From: Sphaerolaimus hirsutus | Taxonomy: Eukaryota; Nematoda; Chromadorea; Monhysterida; Sphaerolaimidae | Length of the DNA: 64,000 nt | Assembly (NCBI GenBank): GCA_964036195.1 | Contig: OZ038451.1 | Location: 6,514,529-6,578,528 of the forward strand | Reading direction: 5' to 3' | In this document: piece after piece, positions 23,220 through 56,800 of the stretch | How the letters are laid out: the number at the start of each line of letters is the position of its first letter | Position numbering within the stretch: the first letter of the stretch is position 1 | Translations under genes and position numbers: made by a program | The notes under the pieces: model-generated | Databases searched by the model: none | What the model was told of the DNA's origin: nothing | What the model saw: only the letters and a program-made list of their open reading frames with translations

Positions 23220-23892
23220 TAGGGTTGGGACGATATATCGTATCGAATATCGAATATCGGATATCGACGATTTTTTCATATCGAATATCGAATATCGATA
23301 TCGAAAATTTTGAAAAAATATCGATATCGAATATCGACCATTTTTTCGATATTTTTCGATATTCCTCCCTTCCCTGGCCTGACTTGAAATGTGCCAGGAA
23401 TGGCACTGTTAGCAAGAGATTTTGTTGGTAATTTTCAAAAATTTTGTGCCCAAGCATGTCCTTGTCATCACATGACAGGTATGTCCATTTCAGCATTTGC
23501 AAACACCTCGAATGTTGTGCAAATGCACTCATAAATGTCCACGTCAGAGTATGTGCCATTTTCCTGACTGCATCGGTCAGATTTTAGGGGGTGGGGAGAT
23601 TTTATGTTCATTTTATGTAAACTTGTATAATCTACTTTTTAGTAAGGAGATGATTAACTATGTTTGTGACCAAATGGAAATAGATTATGACACTCAGATA
23701 AAAATAACAAGCAACAAAAGTAAAATATCGAAAATATCGAAATATCGATATCGAATATTGAGCATATTTTCATATCAAATATCGATATTGAATATCGAGG
23801 GTCCATATCGTATCGATATCGAATATCGAGTTTCAGAAAAAAATATTGAATATCGAATATCGATATCGAAAAGTCGTATCGTCCCAACCATA
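23220..23892. mobile_element. hAT-like element, TAGGGTTGGGACGATAT family, nested in 23063-25227
   Basis: The ends TAGGGTTGGGACGATAT and CGTATCGTCCCAACCATA carry an 8-bp duplication CTTCACAT (23212-23219, 23893-23900). It is the sister of 2081-2793. The 251-codon frame starting at 23497 runs out of the element through repeats and is not a gene. Confidence 0.92.
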
Positions 23893-24094
23893 CTTCACAT
23901 CAAAACTCTTCATTGGGCTACTGCCCCACTTCTACTCAAGAACTGCATCACTTCTAATCAAATATTTAATTCCCATAATATTTTGTCATCAATATGTATG
24001 CTGTTTGTATATGCTTACTGCCTCCAGATTATGTTTGTATTATGTATTGCATTAAGTATTGCCCATTGTTCAGTATTTTTTACTCATTGGCATC

Positions 24095-24477
24095 TACCGT
24101 ATTTCCTCAAAATACCCCCAGGGGGGTTATTTTTTCAGAGTGGTAATTTTGAGGGGGTATTTCGAGGGGGGTGTTATCTCACCAGAAATTTTCATAAATA
24201 TCGTATGGGCTTTTTCATACCCAGAACTGGTAATAAATGTCACCAAACGTAAAAAAATGTATATGAACATACAAATGTTGATAGCTATACAAACTACTCT
24301 GTGTAGCTGTGATGAGATTTGACCCCAATAAATACATTATGTACATTATATACATGATGTATATCATTTAAGAGGGGGTATTTTGAGGGGGTTTATTTTT
24401 TTCCTCAGCTTGAAAACACCTGTGGGTATTTTGAGGGGGTTTATTCAAGGGGGGGGGTATTTCGAGGAAATATGGTA
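24095..24477. mobile_element. TA-flanked hairpin, CCGTATTTCCTC type, nested in 23063-25227
   Basis: TACCGTATTTCCTCAAAATA and TATTTCGAGGAAATATGGTA are inverted ends, with GGGGGTATTTTGAGGGGG repeats inside. TA dinucleotides flank it. Confidence 0.75.
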
Positions 24478-26024
24478 TATATATATAGACACAAGGAACA
24501 AACAGCATACTTTTTCCACTATGAATTCCATTGCTATAAGACCTATAGTAGTGACTGGGATTTGTGTGACTTTCAATGTAAAGACTTGACTTATCTTTTG
24601 ATGATAGACCTGAGATGACATCCTCATCCCAAATAGAATGAAAACCAGTCATACTTTCAATAAAGTGAAAATATAATGTCTTCCAAATATTTAAATACAC
24701 ATGAAAGATGTGGATCCATTGACATGAGCTAATCCATTTTCATTTTTAGCTCAAGTGTACTCAAAACTTATGTCACATTGAAGTTTTGAATACACTGTGT
24801 CAAAGGACAGCAAGCAGGTTCTACATAGACACATGCTTTTCCCAGGCAATACTAATTGCTACAGGTGCAGCACATGGTGCAGTCTGCAGCTTTTCCAACC
24901 AGCTTTACATGAATTATTTTTCTCTTTGATCTGAAGTGATGCAGTAAGCACAATATGCACAACATACATTGATGGCAAATATAAGTGGAAGTAAATATTT
25001 GATTAGAAGTGATGCAGTTCTTGATTAGAAGTGGGGCAGTAGCCCAATTTAAAGTGTTGATGTGAAGTGAGACATTTTCGATGAGAAATGAGGCAGTACT
25101 TGATTAGAAGTGAGGCAGAAACGTTGGATTAAGTTTTGATGTGAGGTGAAGTGAGGCAGTTCTTGATTATATGTGATGCACCTGGGACTTAATGTGACGT
25201 GTGCATGATTAGAAGTGATGCACACCCTGGTATTTACGTGGCTACATAAATGTGTACATTCCGGGGTCTCTAATTAATGTAGGGGAGTTGGTGTACCACG
25301 AAAAAATGTTGGTTTTTTAATATAGATTTGATGTGGTAGATATTATTGTAAAGTGTGCGATCAGTGGGATGGGTACAATACAAATGGTACAACAGGAATA
25401 AAATATTACTGACGCATATTAAAATAACCATACATAAATACCTGTTTATACTCCAGTGGCATGACACCCTGCACTGGCATTGATTTATGTCTCACGTTGG
25501 TAGCGTGCCAACTAAAATAAAGGCATGCGATTTAAAAAATTCTTTTCTGTGAATACATTAACGTATTCATAATGTAATAAAAACGGCAATTATTTTTTCC
25601 ATCTTTTTATGAAGATCGCACGTGTAAAATATCGTTGGCACGCTTTCAACGTGAACCACGCGTGCAAGGTGTACAGTCACTGGGGTATCTACATCCATTT
25701 ACATCGATTTTTAGCCAAAATTTCGCGTTTGAACTTTACAACAAACCAGTCGCCTTTCCATTTGATTCAATGCACATCTTCTTTTATCGCTAGTCGTGAA
25801 CGATTTTTGATTACTTTAAAGACCTTGAAGTCATCTCATAGTGTACGAAAAATTTCACAAGGCGTTTTTCTCTTTTTAGTCATTTTTATTTTCGTGCCAA
25901 GTTTTGTGACGCGTCGCTGAGACCGTATTCGAATTTCATGCATTCTTTCTGCTTGTCTTTGCTTTTTTTTAACTGCAAATAGACTCTCCACGCGAGAAAA
26001 GCAGTACGTAAAATTGGTGTAAAT

Positions 26025-32441: not shown

Positions 32442-35190
32442 AATTCACTTAACTCGTAGACAAGGGTTGAACACATTTGAATTTACTGCAATGAGTTTAC
32501 CATTTTACCCTCCGTCAACTGGGCATATCTAATGTTCATGTTTCTATTCGATAATTGATAAATATAAGTAAGTAATTACCCTATTTCATCGAAATACCCC
32601 CAGTGTGTTTTTTCAGGGTGCAAATTTTGAGGGGGTAATTGGGCGGAGGGGTATTTAGGGGTGTCAATTTTTCATACGCGCACTCGACTTATATCGTGTA
32701 AATATTTGAATTTTTGTGAATCTTGTATTTACATTCAATTTGATTAAGATTCGCAATTCAGTATTCGATGTTTGTTCCCCAATTAGGTATATATTTTCCA
32801 TCCTAAATACTTTAATATTGTAGATGATACATCGCCGCAACAAATAAAGCATTCACAATTCCATTTTCCATCTCGAAATGTTTTTTTCATCAGCCATAAA
32901 TAATCATTTCGTTTGCTGCCACACCCACGATTTTCAGGTTTCATTTTTATACTTTCACCGCTATAGTTTTTCCCCTCTAATTTATTAACATTAATAGTTT
33001 TTGTTAGCGGTGGAATGTGCACCGTGAATTCGTTACCGGAATTGTTGCGGTTTCGGTACCTGCAGTCCGGTATGATGCACCACTGGATGTGTTTCTTTTC
33101 AAATGATTTTTAGGCGGTAACATTCTACCTAATTATTTGAGCGGTCATATAGAAAAAGAAAAAGCTTTCGGTGTTTTGGTCTTTTTTGTGTTATCTTTCT
33201 GTAAAAAAAGTTGTATTTATGATCAATTTAAATGAAATCGGTCAATATAATATTTAAATTTACCGACGGTGTTTTTTCTTTCAGTTTTAATCCTAATTCC
33301 CCCCTATTTTGTTTAGCAAAATATTCTGTAAATGTAACACAAGTACGAAAAAACATGTACCGTATTCATTGATACCGCATGAATTACGATTCATTGATAC
33401 CCCTGGTAATCACTAATAAATTCGTACAAACTTTCTATAAAATGGAATATTTACACAGCGCCAAAGTAAAAGTGCCAAAGTTGCATCTTCATTACGGAAA
33501 AATGTGCATCGCCAAGTTTTATTCATTCCATTCCACAAATTTTTACAATAATTTCGTTCTTATTGGTTTTAGTTTAGTTTCAGTGTGCAATTTTTGCGGT
33601 GGGGTGGATGCAAATTTTTGTGTACGAAACTGTTTTGTAGTGGTAGAATTTTCCGCGACCGTATTTCTCTGTATTTTTGTGTATTTGGCGTTATTTTCCA
33701 AAGATTGACCAATGGTGATTTTTACTCGATAAATATTTACTTCATACCCGATTTATGCATATCAGATATAGATGAAAAAAGTTTGCCCTACAATTGTCAA
33801 TTTTCCATTCACTGATATTCACACCCACACCCAGACCCTGTAAAATGTCAAACGTCATGCAAAATGCCCTGGAAAATGTCAAATGTTTTCTAATTTTTTT
33901 AGTTTGTTTGACGTTTTTCATGACATTTTACATGACGTTTGACACTTTGCATCGCATGATATTTGGCATTTTGGAAGTAGCCCCTGGTTTTATTCGCACT
34001 TGATGTCTTTGTAGAATTGTTTTGCTCTATGACCTTGAATTTGCGAAGACTGAAATCGAAATGGTGGTTTTGTTTATGTGGCATTGCATACTTTGGCAAG
34101 TTTCCAATTCTACGTTTGTGTCATCGTTTTTGTGCACCGTTATAACAAATGAGGTAGAACAAATTGAAACATGAGGTTACTTTCCGCCATTTTTATTCCA
34201 GGGTTTTCAATAAACCATTGTTAAATTACTGTACACAGTAAGATTCTATCAGAATACAGTTTGTTTCATTTTGGACAAAAATGAAAATACATATGCCCGT
34301 TTATCGAAATAGGCACCGAAGTTTTACAAACACTAAGATAAACTTCAAATCTTCCATTATTTAAAAAGAAACGATAATTTTTTTAGAATTCATATTCACA
34401 TCCACTGGAAATCACTCTAAAATTCTCAAAACTGTCCCCAAATTCAAAACTTCCGAACGAGTGACCACTGTCCACCCTCACATTGCATTGCAATTCAGAA
34501 CCGCAATTTAATTGTGCAATACTTTTGTCTGTCTGCGCGTGTGTGCAAGGAAATGCACCACACAACTTGCACATAACATACCTAAATTGCATACAAAATA
34601 GTGTACTGTCCTTATGTTCAATCCATGCGTATACTGCATACAAGTGAAATGTTGTGCCAGCCGCAAAATTGGCACCATTTTGATAATTATGTTTGTCTAC
34701 CGGAGATGACTTTCTCAGTGGACTGTGGTCAGGCGTGGCATTTGGGGGGTGCTCCTCTAATTATACTAGTCACTTTAAATTAGTTTGAACTTATGTTTTA
34801 CAGCTGGATTAATTATGCTAATTATTCCTGTTCTACAGGCAAATTTTGTGTTTTGAGGGTTTTTGTTTCAATTAATGCAAGCATTGAAACAATAGACATG
34901 CCTGGAATATGAGGAAAAAAAGTGAAAGAATTTGTGCCATTGGTGTGTTGTGTGGCTTTTGTTAGTGCCCATATCCCACGGCACCAGTGCTTTGCAGTTT
35001 CTAATCTACCACATTGATTCCATTCAAATGTCACTTAATTTGAAAATTTATTTAAAAATAGTATTTATTTGTTAATATTTACCCCACACCGCAATCTGCA
35101 GTGCTTTTATTTCAAATAATTATCAACATGCTTTGACAGAATTAGACATTACAATATTTTTTACCTATCAATGATATTTTATGCACATCA
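32442..35190. other. Intergenic sequence, no gene supported
   Basis: This is AT-rich DNA with one family-1 copy (33825-33985) and one half hairpin near 32578. The minus-strand frame 34643-34383 (86 codons, Cys-rich, with a reasonable-looking C-terminus) was considered but has no recognisable match or splice context. Confidence 0.5.
33825..33985. mobile_element. Family-1 inverted-repeat element (intergenic copy)
   Basis: CCCAGACCCTGTAAAATGTC starts the left arm. GACATTTTACATGACGTTTG and then GGCATTTTGGAAGTAGCCCC form the right arm. It has the same organisation as the intron-forming copies but lies between genes. Confidence 0.75.
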
Positions 35191-35971
35191 GGTGCCGGTT
35201 CCGCAAGTGGACAAGTTAAGAGTTAAAAGTTAAGAGTTGAGTAAAAAGACAAATGGCGAGTTAAGAGTAAAGTTAAAGTTTAAGAGAAAAGTTAAAGTTT
35301 AAGAGAAAAGTTAAAATTTAAGAGAAAAGTTAAAAGTTGAGTTAAAGGTTAAGAGTTGAGTTAAAGGTTAAAAGTTGAGTTAAGAGTTAAAAGTTGAGTT
35401 AAGAGTTGAGTTAAGAGTTAAGAGACAAGTGGAAAATGATGGTAAAAAATATAAAAAAATAAAAATATGAAAGTGGTATCGATACGGCTGTTCGCTGGCA
35501 TGGTGCCAATGTTGTATGCACGTCATTTGAAAATAACGTATCCAAAAAAATTATCGCTAAAAAAAGAAAAAATCGCCAAACGTTGTTTCGAAATGGCCGT
35601 GCGGGGACAAAATATGATTGAAGATCAGCGTATCGCGCTTCTGCAACGAATGACCCATTTGTCTAATTAAATCAACTTTTAACTCATTTTTTAACCTTTA
35701 ACTCAACTCTTAACTTTTAACTCAACTTTTGACTCAACTTTTAACCTTTAACTCAACTCTTAACTTTTAACTCAACTTTTGACTCAACTTTTAACCTTTA
35801 ACTCAACTCTTAACTTTTAACTCAACTTTTGACTCAACTTTTAACCTTTAACTCAACTTTTAACCTTTAACTCAACTCTTAACTTTTAACTCAACTTTTG
35901 ACTCAACTTTTAACCTTTAACTCAACTCTTAACTTTTAACTCTTAACTTGTCTACTTGCGGAACTGGCCCC
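35191..35971. mobile_element. Family-2 inverted-repeat element carrying an ORF
   Basis: The left end GGTGCCGGTTCCGCAAGTGG and the right end CTACTTGCGGAACTGGCCCC are inverted. The arms are tandem AGAGTTAAAAGTTGAGTTA and its complement TAACTCAACTCTTAACTTTT, giving a hairpin several hundred bases long. Between the arms sits a 204-bp open frame (35467-35670) of quite different composition, which looks like captured sequence. Confidence 0.85.
35467..35670 (+). CDS. Small ORF (67 aa) between the arms of a family-2 element
   Basis: The frame starts ATG AAA GTG and ends TAA, almost filling the space between the two repetitive arms. The predicted product is basic, with a short hydrophobic N-terminal stretch (IRLFAGMVPML) and then KKLSLKKEKIAKRCFEMAVR, with mixed codons and no low complexity. 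Unlike the other short frames here it is not a translation of a repeat. I do not recognise the protein. It could be a captured exon or small gene, a decayed remnant, or chance. Nothing nearby shows that it is transcribed. Confidence 0.35.
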   Translation: MKVVSIRLFAGMVPMLYARHLKITYPKKLSLKKEKIAKRCFEMAVRGQNMIEDQRIALLQRMTHLSN

Positions 35972-36398
35972 TGTAAAGTCATTATCTCAGAGGGTTTTTC
36001 TTCAAATTCATCAAACAGCAGTATAGAAAGTATGTGTAAAGCGCAATTACATGGTTGATTTTGATGGTAGATTCACTGAAAAAAAACTTCTTTTTTTTCA
36101 GTGGACTATAGTCTTTGGATATGTCTGTGCTAAGTACCATTACCAAATGTCAAGTGTGTGCGCATTTCCTGTAAAGTGAGTGTGACCAATGTCCATCTGT
36201 GTGTGTGATGCAAATTTACATTTATGAATCAGAGATTACACATTTTGCCTTCACAACTTTGAATGTCTTATTTATTTATTTCAAGTGTGTGCCAAAATTG
36301 GGAGAGTAACATTTATCGGTGGATAAAGTTTGAATTGATGATGGCACGGTACTTTTTGTGTTATCTGCTAAAATATTCCCTTGTGGATGTTTCAACAT

Positions 36399-47800: not shown

Positions 47801-50800
47801 GCACAAACATCCAGAGAGTGTAGATGTCCAGGGGTCACAGATGTCCACAGAGTCACCCCTCAAACAACCCCCCAAACATTCTCACAGCCCACCAGTGAAG
47901 CGGGCGCTGAAGACTACAGTAACGAGCGAATCTACTACCAACCCCCAACCTCAAACACAACGTCATCAGATCATAATTACGTGTCGCCCAGCCACCGTAG
48001 GGCGCCAAGTTCAGGCGCGCCTGGTGACGATTCGTTGTTGCTGCAGCTGAGACATGGTCAGGCGCCGCGGCGCCCTACGAGCGCCCTAAATCAGGTAGGG
48101 TTGTCTTGGGGGTTATTTGAGGTTGGGTGCGAAAAATGGATGAGAAGTTTTTTGACTGGGGAAATGGTGTCTGATGATTGTACGCTTTACATTGAACCTT
48201 TACCATATACAATTCGAATAAAGACCAGAAATTGTGTACGTTTTTTGATTTCAGAATTTATATACCACCTTTATTTTACTACGGAATAAGTTTGCGTGAA
48301 TTTGTAATGTGACGTTATTCACGAAATCACAGTAATATTCCCTGTAAAGCCTGTAACACGTACACATTTGCTATATACGTTGGCGTTTCAGATAACAGGT
48401 AGCGAAAATTATGTACTTTGAAACTATTATTTTTCAGTTATTGTGCGGCATCCTTTTTAATACTGGATTATAAATATGAACTTGGATTATTTTAAATACT
48501 AGATGAAAACGTATTGCGTTGAAAACACGTAAAACATTTTGCAACGTTGGTTTTCCACAAGGGAACTTGTGGTTGGGATAATTGATTTGCATTTATAATT
48601 TCCGTATTTGCATGGTAGAAAGTCTAGATAGAGTGTTGTAATTACATGCATACAGTATGTACAGGGGTGGGCATCTTCAGTTACCGCTGGGAAAATGCGA
48701 TAGATTGAGCTACGGTTGAGCTATCGGAATGAAATTTTAACACAATGGAGTAGACTCCATAGGACACCTATTCTGAAGTTTGCAACCCAAACGGCCACAT
48801 TTTGGGTGAATTGTGGAACACACGGTTTTTAGTGTAATTTTGTGACTTGGCGTCACCCATAGGATAAATCGAGGGTGGCATTTGAGGGGGGGGTCATCGG
48901 TCGTTGGTGTCGTCCCATTCTGTCGTACATCGGCCGATTTTGATGCCCTTTGAGTATGTTGTGGTCGCGCCTACTACCAAATTCTTTTTTTACTCGAATA
49001 GTCCCCCAGTCCCGAGATAAGGGGGGTGAAGTCACAAAATTACACTAAAAACTGTGTGTTCCACAACTCCTCCAAACTGTGGCCGTTTGGGTTGCAAACT
49101 TCAGCATAGGTGTCCTATGGAGTCTACTCTATTGTGTTAAAATTTCATTGTGATAGCTCAACTGTAGCTCAAGCTATCGCGTTTTTCCAGCGGTAACTGA
49201 AGATGCCCACCCCTGTATGTATACATATACCATAAAAATGGTGAAATTTCTTCCAATTACACGGTAGTTTATATTCCTCGCTTTTGCGCATGTCAGCCTG
49301 CCGTAGTATACACCGCACAAAATAGTTAAAGTTGTGGGTAAAAAAGGTTGTTACATACATTTGGTTGAATGTGGGCAAAAACAATAACCCCTAGGGGGCA
49401 ATTCTGAAAGTGAACAACTGTACTTATAACTTTTCCTTGCCACTTATGTGTTCTTGCGGAATTGACCACAGGTTTCCATTCCATTGTCCACAAATGTAAC
49501 AACCTTTTTTGCCACGACTTTACTTTTGTAAACCACCAAAAACAACAGCCGAACAACAGAGCCTTTGAATCAATGGGCAGATAAATATTCATCCAGTGAT
49601 AGTGAAGCGAAGTCATTATTTCACCTGAAAGTGTCCAAAAGACATTTGGCGGATTGGACACTTTCCGGAAAACATGCAACGTCAGTTCCCATCTTTGGTT
49701 ACTGCCAGGAAACGAAGTGGACATGAACCTGCCCACAGATTCAAAGGCAACCCATCATTTTGAAAATAAACCCCCCTAAAATACACATCAAAAAATATAT
49801 TCAGATGGAATCGCAATATCAAATGCAGCAAAATCAATCCTATCAATATCAAAGTGAAATGCAACAAACTCAACAAACAGATAATTATCAAAGGAGGCTG
49901 GCTGAACAGAGAAAACTTGAGGAACAAGCTATAAGACTTCGGAGGGAGGAATATAATCGATTGGAGAGGGAAAGGAATGAGAGAAAAAGGTGCGTTTTTG
50001 GATTGTTATTTTTTCAGATTTGAAGTTTGATTTGCGATTGAAATCTGTTATGTTGTTTACAAATGTTTTTCTCGTATTTCTTATTTGGTGTTTATATTTG
50101 ATATTACACATTCAAAATTCAACATCAAAATTCAACATTCAAAAAACTGACCAGTTCAATAGCGGCCTCAAAACTTCTCCGGGCATTGTGACAGCCCCGC
50201 CCTGTAAAGTGTGAAATATCAAGTAAAATGTTAAAAGTTCAATACTGTGAATTATTGATATTTCACTTGACATTTGACACTTTACTTTACACCTTACACT
50301 TGGATTGCCACCTTGTTTCCCAGCCCCGAGAACCTCCTATCTAAACCCCATCGTAACAAGTATCATATAATAATAAATCTAATTAGTCACAAAACCACGC
50401 AAATAAATGACCACAAAAATATCAATCCAAATCCCCCTTAAATTTGCAGGTTCCAAAAATCTGTGCCCGATTTGCGTCCGGCCGGAGTGATTGTGACATC
50501 GTCTGGCGCTTTCACGGGTGACGGGCGGAGAATTGACACGAAATCCTGGCAACAGCAATATCCCGTTGTCACGCCCAGACCGCAGGTGGGATTTTATATT
50601 TTCATTGATTTTTATACAATATGAAAAATTGCGAAATAGTTGTTCTCAGGATAACCTACCGCATCTGCTTGAATAATTCTCTATTGAATAATCCCCCCTC
50701 TCGAATACTCCCCCCCTGTGAAACGATCGAGGAAAAATAATCCCCCTTCCTTCAATAACTCCCCTCTCAATGCAAATAATCAATTTGTTCTGTCCAATTT

Positions 50801-53800
50801 GAACAAAAACGGCATGTTATGGTGTTAATAAAGCATATTTTGTGAAATGAGTTCAGTCCCGAGCCCTGTAAAATGTCAAGTCAAATGTCAAATGTCATAC
50901 CAAAAAAAAATGCTGTTGCTGAAATTTTGACACTTTGAAAATTTGTATGACATTTGTCACAAATTTGTATGACACTTGACTTTACACTTTACAGGGCTCG
51001 GGTTTGTCTCCTGTAGTTTTTCTAAGGTGTTTACTCTCAAATCAACCCCCCTCCCCCAGGACATCATAGTAGCGGACACCCAACCACCGCAAGAATCCTA
51101 CTACGTGGACATCTTGGCGCGGCGCGACAAGTTCGTCGAGCGACCCGAGCCCCAGCCTGAGATAAAACACGTGCGTCCGTGGCAGCCGCCGCCAGACATG
51201 CCGCCTAGATTGCCCAATAGGAGGCACCCCCTCAAGTTGGTTTGAGGCCCAGGGGAAGGTTTTGATTGGAGGGGTGGGAGGTGATGGAAAGTGGTAATTG
51301 GTTAGGTTAATAGCGGGACGTGAACTGACAAGTAAAGTTTGTAGTGACAGGCATTATAGTGACAAGTATTTCTAGTGAGTGACAAGTTTTTGTTATCACT
51401 TATCATTTGTTTTTTTTGTGACTTGACGTTAGAATTGGGAATTTCAAAACTTTCGGGTCTGGTATCGGGAATCGGTTCCAAAAATGTGCGGGTATCGGGT
51501 TTCGGTCGATCCGGGTCGGGTCGAGTCGGGTTCCCAACCTTGACGTACTTGACGCACTTTTACATAGTGCCCTCACATATTCCGAGTCAAGCAAATTGAA
51601 TTAAATTGATGACATTTCGACAAGCGACAGACCACTTTATGGCCTTAGGGTGCCGCACCTATTGTGACAAATTTTGACAAAATTTAAATAAAAACAACCC
51701 CCCACAGACCATTTCTCATCGACGACGTGGGTGAGTACAAATGGCGGCCGGTATTATACGAGCCCGAATTCAAATACGAACGGAAAAACTTCACGCCCGA
51801 ACCAGAGGACATAAGTTCCAAAGTTCCGGAGGGTTATGTCTTCCAGCCGATTTCACCCCTGCCCGGTACTTTGGATGATGTTGCGAAAAGACAAACCAGG
51901 GGACTATTGGAACCTGGGACCGGTGCCAGGGCTATACCGTATACTCCGCAAATACAGTATGAAGAACCTGTGGAGGTAGGTTTTTGGCTGTTTGTTTTTT
52001 ATTTTGAGGTTTCCGACAGTTCGAGCTTTAATAATTGAATAATTGAAGTGTGATTTGGTGTCACAAACGTTTCAGTTCAAAACATATAAAAATCCATATT
52101 TCTTATTACCGGTAAAGACATGTAACAGTAACGCTGCGCTATTCAAGTAGAATTCCGTGAAAACTTCTGTTTTAGGGTCATGTCTCAGTTGTGGGGTCAT
52201 TTAACAGACATCAATAATTTCATGTACGGAAAAATTGCCAGATACAGCTGCTATACAGTGGCGCTAGTGCGGATCGCACCATTTTTTAAACCGTCCGGAA
52301 AAACAATAAACTAGTGGGTGGTGCTATTTGGCGAAAAGTATTATTATGAACAGACCAAAACACAGTAATCTCTGACAAAGCATACCTATTTAGTTTCAGT
52401 GCCTTCTCAACTTGATTTCACCAAACCCGTCAACTTCAAACCCCATCCATTCCAACTCCAACCCCCAACAACCCCCCCCCCCAGGTGCACATCCGCAGTA
52501 TCCGTCCGCAATCCGCTCAAGCAGTGCCGACGCAACCCCAACACCCCCCATTTCACTACCCCCGTAGGGCGGCGGGCACCCCCTCCACGTTCATGGTGCC
52601 CAGCGAACCCCCCTTGTCTGTTGGGCCGCACCCTTCTACCGTCACTCATAGTAGGGCGGAACTGGCGCTGGTGCTAGATTCAATTGGGATGTAGGGCGCG
52701 ATGTGGGGCGCCCAACGCCAGTGTAAGTGAGGGCAATTGGGGGTGATAAGGCGCTTACTCGCTTGTAGGACGCCCTACACAGCGCCCTACGTTCCAATTG
52801 AATTTAGCCGCTGGTGGGCAAGCCGGTCAAAAAGAGGGTCACCGAATTGGAGACGGCTAGAAGGGCGCACACGCCGCAGCCGAGTGGCCAGCAAATGCAT
52901 CAGGTGGGTGATGGTGATTGCGGATTGTGAAACTCTGAATAACCCCCCCCCCCCTTGAATAACTCACCAAGCGACTTGAGGAAAAGTTGATAAAATTAGG
53001 GGCGTTACCGTCGCACCATACTGGCTCCTTACAGACTAGAGCACAGCCACCACTGTGGTTTAGCGGTTAGCGCGCTCGTGTTCTGTACGAGAGGCGCGGG
53101 TTCGATTCCCGTCTGTGGCAGTGCAAATTTTGCAATATTTCTATAATCACAATCCGGAATACCTAACTACAGTTAACTGCCTTACTTGAGTGTTTGGTAC
53201 ACATGTTTTATGCCGTCTCCGCCTAAACCAATAGGACGTTGACTTTTTTTTGTTGAAAAATACCGTTTAAACAATGTAGGAATTATACCATAGAATGTTT
53301 TGGCGCTTTTGCTACGCAAATCGCCTGCTCATAAATTTAAAACTGGTTCTGTAGTAATTATTATTTTGTGAATGCATTGTAATACATATTTTAGCGACTA
53401 CATCAGCATGTACCTTCTCAAACACTTCCTTTTATGTAAAATTTAGCTTTTAAGTACCTACTACAGACGCTTCCAACGTGTATTCCCTGCAAGAAATTTA
53501 CAATATGCATACATATTTTTATACATAAGCAGTATAACAGAGCCTATGAACTTACAAAGTGTAATTTTTGTTGTTTTTCCTAATGACATCATTGTAAAAC
53601 AATCATATAATTCGAAATATTGGAACGAGTGTTTCCATAGGCTGTGATTGGTTCGTTTGCTTGCCTACTGGTTACTTCATGGTCGAAACATAACTAAAGA
53701 CAGCCTGTGGAAACATTCGTTACTATAATCAGGAATATGACTGGATGAACTTAGAAACAATGATACCATGGCAAATACACAACAACATAAATAACACTTT

Positions 53801-56800
53801 GTAACTTCAAGGTTTTTGGTATATTTATCTACTGCTTGCATGCCCCCATTAGACAATGCTATGTTCAAAAATAAAATTAGATTTACTGAAACCAACAGAA
53901 TCCCAACTCGACTCAAACCAAAATTTTAAAGAATTCAAATTCAAAATTGAAAAACCACAAATGCAGCCGCCTCCACTGAGCAGCGGGTGGTCCAGTTATT
54001 CGGCTCGACTGCAATCCCAAGAACACAGACACATCAAACAGCAGGGCCACAAGGCCTGGGCGCAGCACCAGAAACGAGTGAGACATGAACTACAGAAACA
54101 AATGTCACCTCAGATGTCACCGCTCGCATTGGGTCAGGCCCCTGGTGCCGTGCTGGCAATTGAAAATGGCCCCAGCACAAGTACGGAGCTACCGCATGGC
54201 AGGGAAATGCAAGTGTAGATGGCAATGGCATGTTTTGGCTTAATTATTCATTTTATTTTATTTATTATTTAGAATATTTCTATTCATTTTTTGGTTGTCC
54301 AGCTTATTTTCTCATTCTCCCATTGCTGAATGCTAATTATTTAGATGCTTAATTTCGTATTTTTCCCGCCTATGTACCCATTGTATGGTGCCATTTCTAT
54401 TTTTGGTGGCCAGTTAGCATATTTTTTATATCATCCATGATTTTCTATTGACTTTGAATGGCTATTTTTTTGTTGCGACCGGCTTTATGGAACTGCATGC
54501 TGAAATTCTAGCTAAAAACATGGTTAATTTGCGATTAATTTATGGATATTAAGATGCCTGCAGAATGAAACATCAATTTTGGTGGTTGGTCAATGTCCCA
54601 ATTGTTTTTTTTTTGTAAATACACATTTTTGTCAAGCTATGTGTTTGAATGCTTCAAAATTTTGAGAAATTTCGCAGAAACCTCCAACAATACGTCGCAC
54701 TCGTTCAGTGGATCACAAAATGGTGCAAACAGTTGTGAGTTTTTGTATTTATTTGTTTATTTATCGATGTATGTATGTTGTATGTTATACCCTGTATGTT
54801 ATATGTATTTGTGTTTCTATGTTATATGTTCTATTCACATGTTCAAATTGTCCCATGTCCATTTTCTACATGGCCTCAATTAGTATGCAATTCAATTGTC
54901 ATAATTTTATACATAGAATATAAGTATTTATACATAATGCATGAACAAAATTTGGCAATAATCCATATCAAAGTTCTTTCATTTTCAGGAACCACCCAAG
55001 ATCAAATCGGTGAGTGAAATCAAATTTACATAAGTTTTTACGTCAATTTTTGCACTCCTCTGTAGTGATGAACTTCTCTTCACTGCATTTGCACCATGCA
55101 CCCAAAATAACCTGCTTTTTAGCTGCCACAAATAATACAAAATCACTGTGAAGGGTTTACTGATGAGAATTAGGTCACTATGGGTCGTGTTTCAAAACTC
55201 TTACACAAAATTGAAACGTTTTCCTTGTGTCATTGTTCGATCATATTTATTCACAAATTCGAATGAAATTTCGATCAAAACATTTCAATTTTTAATAAAG
55301 TTAGGCATCTTGAACACTTCCCAGTGCTAACATTACATGATGACACTATTGGGGGAATTTTCAACATGTCATAAAATGTTCGTAAAAATGAACTTTTATA
55401 ATTCTATCAACTTGAAATTCAACACGATGAAATTGTTCCCCCACTAGTTTCCCGTACTCGAGTGTTTCTCATGTGCATCTCATTGACATTCAACCGCGCC
55501 CAGGAAAATTTTTTAAAAACATTTTAAAAAACGTCGAATTTTAAAAAACCACCAAATACTTCCACCCCACAAAAAACTCACTAATTACCTACAAACAAAG
55601 CCTCAATATGATGAAACAATGGCGCCGCTGCGAGAATTGTCCGAAATCAGACAGCGTCTGGAGCAGAAATCACAACAAAAGCGCACCAACGATATTCGAC
55701 TTACCGAGTGCGAGATCGATGTAAGACACGAACATGCGCACACTGCCGGCCGCTTGGCACCTTGCCAACACGCTAATCAACCTGCTGTGGAGGAGGTAAA
55801 ATTTTTTAGGGTTTTTTGCGAATTTTTTTTTGAGAAATTGGTTTGGGCTTAATTTGATTTAGTTTGAGACTGGGAAGAATGTTTGCTGACCGGCAAAATT
55901 TAAAAACTGTTTTACTTGGATTTGGTTTGGCGCTATTCAATCACTTTTCACTGAATTATTTGCTACGAAATGGGTTCAAAAAATGCTTCTTAGCTGCCGT
56001 AGTGTGGGGTGTTTGAAAATTTGCTTAACATTGCTAATTGGTAGCGAAACACTAAATATGCAACTGTAAATCGGATCAAAATGAAAAATTCAAAAGTTTC
56101 AACCGGCACGTAAATATATTCAACCGTAGCTTCGCAGTTCGCTTAATTTAAGCTTGGTGCAAATTGCTGAGGTTTCCTGCTACAAAGCTCCTAAAGTGCT
56201 GGGGGCGTTCCAACCCCTTTGCTTTTTACAGCAAAGCAGCTTGTAAAAATGTAGATATCTCTAAAATCTGTAGTACATATGTACCGTATATCCTTGAATA
56301 AGAGCCCAAGAGAGTTATTTTTTCGTCGAAAGTTTTGGATTTTGAAATTTTGAAATCTTTTCGTCAGAAATCATTCAAATATTTACACATTGTGGATACA
56401 CGTAACAAATACCTACAGGTGGAATTACTCAAGGGGTGGGGCTTGTTCAAGGGGGGGGGGGCTCACCTGGCCAACAGGGATGGGTTTATTCAAGGGGTTA
56501 TTCAAGCGGGGGGTCTTATTCAAGGATATACGGTACGTTTATACATACCCAACAAAACAACCATAAGTCACCTAGAAATTAACCCCCCCCCCCCTTTGTG
56601 CCGAACAGGAACGTGACGAACAGGGACTGGAAGCGTCCAATGCGGTGCTGCTGCGTCGAAGCGCCGACTGCGCCGCCAGTACGACCATCGCTGATGGGTC
56701 CTCTGTCTGTTTCGATTGCGACTGGTCACCCCCCCCCCCAGCAGACCCCCCCCCCCCGGGTTTTGTGGTGACCCCCAGTTTTGTTGGCGACCCCCACCCA

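Follow-up and report, generated by a model that had tools for sequence, protein, structure and literature searches.

In this study we describe a family of short DNA transposons in the nematode Sphaerolaimus hirsutus that are introners by anatomy, and one copy of this family whose insertion into an open reading frame was probably the birth of an intron. The copy lies in what we call the window, the whole stretch of 64,000 nucleotides that was analysed (Table 1). At the level of the family, the creation of introns by a transposon with terminal inverted repeats (TIRs) is well supported by what is read at 12 insertion sites in known genes. In the mechanism that we propose, a TIR transposon family of the MITE type would insert into CCWGG, duplicate these five bases and act as an introner. 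Where the end of the element starts with T, insertion would make CCW-G/T (the slash being the edge of the element), and the GT donor would be composite, its G closing the duplication and its T opening the element. Where the target is CCAGG, the acceptor CCAG/G (here and below, the slash is the splice point) would come from the right duplicate, and with such a donor and acceptor splicing would therefore restore the original mRNA exactly. The target of the window copy was GCTGG (W = T), hence its right duplicate has no AG; here the acceptor AG would lie within the terminal repeat on the right (TTTAGCC in this copy), and the predicted intron would add Pro-Leu to the protein. We consider it likely that the window copy is a canonical GT-AG intron of this kind. 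The initial annotation of this locus had already described the element, the GT, the AG and the effect on the frame, all of which hold, together with boundaries that do not and a recency of the insertion that finds no support.

Table 1. Features of the window around the element, followed by the insertion sites in recognisable genes (positions are those of the window)
Feature	Position	Strand	Details
MITE/introner	52672-52809		138 bp; TIRs TGCTAGATTCAATTGG.../GGCTAAATTCAATTGG...
Left target-site duplication	52667-52671		GCTGG (family CCWGG)
Right target-site duplication	52810-52814		GCTGG, without AG; GCTG/G would be a TG acceptor
Predicted intron	52671-52807	+	137 nt; GT 52671-52672, AG 52806-52807
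Exon left of element	52485..52670	+	phase 0, ends ...SRAELAL; open frame VHIRSIRP...AELAL between AG acceptor and GT
Exon right of element	52808..52903	+	PLVGKPVKKRVTELETARRAHTPQPSGQQMHQ (32 codons), then GTGGGT; end taken from sequence
Probable last coding exon, same frame	53967..54218	+	PPPLSSGW...GREMQV + stop; start inferred from sequence alone
RtcB (RTCB) site (L048)			83/83 residues aligned, gapless, E 2.8e-45
Glycine dehydrogenase (GLDC) site (L053)			gapless alignment
PDI/thioredoxin (PDI/TXNDC5) site			junction gapless
HhH-GPD/NTHL1 site (L089)			junction gapless
Glucosidase II beta site (L037, PDB)			51 vs 51 positions, junction gapless
Sirtuin site			53 vs 53 positions; best match one side only, SIRT3 chains both sides, E about 1e-5
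DHHC site			equal lengths either side
UAA transporter site (L009)			49 vs 49 domain positions, equal lengths either side
Two FMN dehydrogenase (FMN_dh) sites (L102, L106)			equal lengths either side
Mitochondrial RNA polymerase (POLRMT) site (L005)			three extra residues at junction
Aquaporin site (L132)			match of 47 residues vs 49 profile positions

The inverted repeats of the window copy lie within 52673-52808, as first annotated, with arms of 55 nt (52673-52727 and 52754-52808) that are 76% complementary, and the AG that had been placed inside the right terminal repeat was found there. A duplication of seven bases, CGCTGGT, had been claimed as well; the alignment of the family rules out seven and gives 5 bp, so that the seven bases are one base outside the target-site duplication (TSD), the TSD itself and one base of the element. 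Because the family TSD is the 5-bp CCWGG, we take the TSD of the window copy to be GCTGG and place the edges of the element accordingly. A perfect 8-bp direct repeat, CGCTGGTG, is present at 52666-52673 and 52809-52816; its additional C and TG are a coincidence or bases of the element. The idea that CGCTGGT is part of the TIR, suggested by copy L005 sharing GCGCTGGTGC, was ruled out by the CCWGG concordance described below. The duplication had been credited with the donor, to which it does contribute the G, but the T is the first base of the element. The element had been credited with the acceptor, which is correct for the window copy if the AG at 52806-52807 is used, but not as the usual arrangement of the family: in the seven W = A copies with a T start among the 12 gene sites the AG comes from the right duplicate (CCAG/G), and relatives commonly have GG where the window copy has its AG. 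Of the 28 bases in each TIR end of the window copy, 24 agree between the two ends, which points to an old insertion provided that the ends started out identical. With this degree of agreement, and with no empty allele found, the statement that the gain was 'caught in the act' lacks support; a search of the assembly for a second copy of the window locus, whether empty or occupied, found none. The RNA of the 137-nt intron is predicted to fold into a single long hairpin (-79.7 kcal/mol) that would bring both of its ends together. A GTAAGT resembling a strong donor lies within the element at 52723-52728, and its use would include an upstream stop codon.

The initial annotation had proposed a search for further copies, and this uncovered a large family. 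In the assembly (348 Mb, 762 contigs) BLAST with the element and its flanks found six partial relatives, a terminal-repeat pattern gave 345 matches at two mismatches or fewer, and a 19-base pattern of duplication plus terminal repeat gave 1,187 at the same threshold; the reversed controls gave 0 in both cases. Loci were fetched from among the matches listed: 60 (30+10+20) from 100 of the 345, 45 (30+15) from 100 of the 1,187, and 18 from 100 matches in a further listing. Together with the BLAST matches, this amounts to 61 distinct copies, each recognised at its two ends. Insertions reached by two loci were counted once, for example L011, L012 and L038 (all L001), L026 and L040 (L005), L045 (L025), L050 (L030), L016 and L066 (L015) and L096 (L037). 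The copies are similar in sequence and share their ends, as is characteristic of introners, and they have the TIRs and the TSD of fixed length that characterise a TIR DNA transposon of the MITE type. A set of 37 copies stems from BLAST and the terminal-repeat pattern and is nearly unbiased as to flanks, though only nearly, since some flanking bases were part of the BLAST query and the discovery copy is included; the remaining 24 copies were selected by a pattern with CCAGG or CCTGG and T. When 272 ends among the matches listed were paired by coordinate, convergent pairs of 80 to 1,367 bp were obtained, plus one of 9,965 bp. The locus pairs L009/L010, L027/L028 and L031/L032, 43 to 83 kb apart, have the same insertion ends and are local duplications. 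L010 lies 83 kb from L009, agrees with it at 1879 of 1942 aligned bases and was excluded as a further site. The longer copies L005, L015, L048 and L053 have common internal blocks such as CTAGTTGACA and CAGTTGACATT, which may belong to another inverted-repeat element nested in them or mark a longer subfamily. The window itself contains other long inverted repeats, at 35189-35973 (259 nt arms, 79%), 48660-49217 (189 nt, 93%) and 23892-25068 (92 nt, 90%), possibly representing further MITE or foldback families.

The TSD of the family is CCWGG, 5 bp long. In alignments of the ends, conservation begins directly behind CCWGG. The 5-base flanks on both sides of the 37 copies match at 3.41 of five positions as compared to 2.94 in shuffled pairs, a value reached by 0 of 2000 shuffles, and of the 29 pairs whose central base is A or T in either flank, 26 are concordant at this base, shuffling giving 51%. 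Departures from CCWGG are frequent in single copies, all five bases being matched in 8 of the 37.

For each copy we joined the flanks through a single CCWGG and read the result as protein. Pfam or PDB searches covered 44 of the 61 copies, 20 of them singly and the other 24 in one batch that comprised 45 reading frames; among the remaining 17, two were without a frame long enough and 15 were judged by eye alone. Twelve of the 20 singly tested copies gave a Pfam match, and the window copy, L033, L037, L017, L119, L030, L047 and L120 gave none. L037 was identified through PDB as glucosidase II beta; a PDB search with L017 yielded weak matches only. The batch of 24 copies had zero Pfam matches in its 45 reading frames. 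At 12 distinct insertion sites among the 44 tested copies a Pfam or PDB match runs across the junction (Table 1). Here coding sequence is interrupted and the removal of the element plus one TSD restores it, as expected of introners. An ankyrin gene (L025) matches on one side only and was left out of the twelve. Seamless removal would produce GT-AG at seven of the 12 sites (L015, L037, L048, L053, L055, L062, L089), GT-TG at three (L005, L009, L132) and GG-AG at two (L102, L106). The latter two have no GT at the junction and might possibly be GG-AG introns. They are FMN_dh paralogues interrupted at the same codon, and their elements align locally over no more than 23 bases, in the left terminal repeat, at best. 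Over the 54 codons of the joined frame we obtained a dS of 1.03 and a dN of 0.14, and on these values the FMN_dh genes look constrained while carrying the element. No empty FMN_dh site was found by paralogy in the own genome, both paralogues being interrupted.

Copies at coding sites show a bias in orientation. In the 37-copy set 11 copies were classed as coding, six by Pfam (L005, L009, L015, L025, L102, L106), one by PDB (L037) and four (the window copy, L017, L030, L033) by an open frame and motif judged by eye; the donor-side end starts with T in 9 of these 11, whereas the remaining 26 copies have T at 6 of their 52 ends (Fisher 9.4e-6). The bias is found as well when the discovery copy and two BLAST-only copies are left out (8/10 vs 6/48, 5.6e-5), when L001-L007 are left out (7/9 vs 6/44, 3e-4), and with the Pfam-supported coding copies only (4/6 vs 6/52, p 0.006). 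At the 12 gene sites a donor-side T is seen in ten; L089, where either end starts with T, is uninformative on orientation, and the remaining nine are all in donor orientation (9/9, two-sided 0.004). In tallies that include a few near-duplicate places, exact T-starting ends genome-wide follow CCAGG 27 times and CCTGG 8 times, whereas G-starting ends among the matches listed, on the contigs shared by the two listings, follow CCAGG 21 and CCTGG 24 times (p 0.007); within the same contigs, again among the matches listed, T-starting ends stand at 16 to 3 against 21 to 24 for G-starting ends (p 0.006). Such an excess of CCAGG at T-starting ends is what the pairing of a GT donor with a CCAG/G acceptor should leave behind. 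One copy, L119, reads as coding (open frame, no Pfam match) but starts with T at the acceptor end, contrary to the orientation rule. The inverted and direct repeats of the window could also be thought to have arisen by chance, or to be an ordinary MITE of the intergenic type that has nothing to do with splicing. This would agree with the 26 copies of the non-coding class in the 37-copy set, which are the 24 of the batch without a Pfam match and the two whose frames were too short. However, known proteins are restored by removal in 12 distinct copies, and the donor-side T bias also speaks against such a reading; the reading is excluded for the family, and we see next to no chance of it for the window copy.

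Splicing of the window copy as predicted would turn ELALVGK into ELALPLVGK, in frame, just as the initial annotation had it. A scan of the element from 52690 onwards met eight AGs (an AG at 52676, five bases past the donor, lies outside the scan), and of these only the AG at 52806-52807 gives a reading that is both in frame and open; exon AGs at 52821, 52833 and 52851 keep the frame too, but with residues deleted. If the element were not spliced, translation would stop inside it, after ELALVLDSIGM, and we would be looking at a damaging allele or at a gene that tolerates the loss of its C-terminus. A weak donor (CTG/GTGCTA, weak at +4 to +6) would suit such a truncation, as would the host gene, which when joined across the element has no match in Pfam and so no support from this search for conservation at the junction. 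On the other hand no stop interrupts the frame in the remainder of the exon past the element or in about 83 codons of the probable last exon, the TIR ends, with four of their 28 bases differing, point to an old insertion on the proviso given above, and the family has its orientation bias at coding sites; truncation seems quite improbable to us. The claim that the element gave birth to an intron is well founded for the family, with its 12 copies, and for the window copy it is a prediction that includes both splicing and the choice of the acceptor. A tRNA-Arg (TCT) gene is located at 53049-53120, within the next intron of the same host gene and on the same strand.

Alternatively, the window copy might be removed seamlessly, as GCTG/GT...GCTG/G, so that a GT-TG intron would restore ELALVGK and the AG 7 nt upstream would only aid recognition. 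In copies with W = T, no other GT register restores the frame exactly, as in the UAA transporter (L009), the aquaporin (L132) and POLRMT (L005), and the nearest frame-keeping AG of L009 would cost 10 residues. TG 3' sites are known as alternatives to an AG that lies no more than 28 nt away, a distance that would cover the AG of the window copy; yet human TG sites, according to the accessible part of the same report (PMC2374985), occur only beside such an AG and never as the sole 3' site. Moreover, W = T is the rarer state at T-starting ends (8 vs 27), and the window copy has a canonical AG that keeps the frame. A GT-TG intron in the window therefore appears unlikely to us, and a canonical GT-AG intron is the reading that we prefer. 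Canonical splicing does not explain the other W = T sense copies well. Downstream of the seamless point their nearest frame-keeping AG is 9 nt away in L005, 30 in L009, 45 in L033 and 48 in L017; in L120, the right TSD of which is mutated to CCCGG, it lies 81 nt upstream, inside the element, and in L132 none was found from -90 to +65. In the other W = T coding copies either TG acceptors work, or the protein tolerates being altered more extensively, or the gene copies are impaired. Hence one might suppose, tentatively and with rather more doubt than belief, that the host removes the copies at a fixed register, CCWG/N...CCWG/G, regardless of the dinucleotides, and that GT-AG, GT-TG and GG-AG are all functional. 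If indeed this were the case, introns would be defined by the target site of the transposon instead of by the GT-AG rule, and in the window we would have a GT-TG intron that functions.

Introners are known from few animal groups, and the present family has many copies, some of them in conserved genes. With donor and acceptor both predictable from a simple rule on the target site, the birth of introns might become datable and testable copy by copy, and the W = T and the G-starting copies could serve as natural tests of how strict the spliceosome is about GT and AG. A literature search for the motif together with a target-site duplication, in which most subscription journals lie outside the coverage, found no title suggesting such a family. 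In the part of their report that is accessible, Gozashti et al. (2022, PMC9860276) describe introners in two animal groups only, copepods being mentioned. The introners of DNA-transposon type presented there resemble our family in having TIRs, a TSD, many copies and insertions into coding exons. Their recruitment of splice sites varies widely, with sites derived partly or wholly from the TSD, and the length of the mRNA is usually unchanged with codons sometimes added. Judged by its sequences, the family described here is an introner in anatomy and, on the predicted splicing, in behaviour. An introner family of Aureococcus in the same report is similar to the window copy in that a splice site lies within the element and codons are added, 12 nt there and 6 nt predicted here; within our family added codons are so far predicted only for the window copy. 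The Aureococcus introners differ in their 8-bp TSD, as opposed to 5 bp, and in having both splice sites in the element. GA/GG donor introns of Eurytemora affinis (Robertson 2017, PMC5714493) are apparently recent gains with AG/GG donors like the CCAG/GG of L102 and L106, although the accessible part of that paper gives no transposon origin for them. A search of the present genome for PF00379, a cuticle domain of arthropods, had no match, and its control had none either, so that this negative says little about whether the domain is lacking. Compared with the introners covered in the accessible part of PMC9860276, the 5-bp CCWGG target and the donor split between the TSD (G) and the element (T) are features of the present family, and its distinctive points are this target, the split donor and the mixed boundary dinucleotides.
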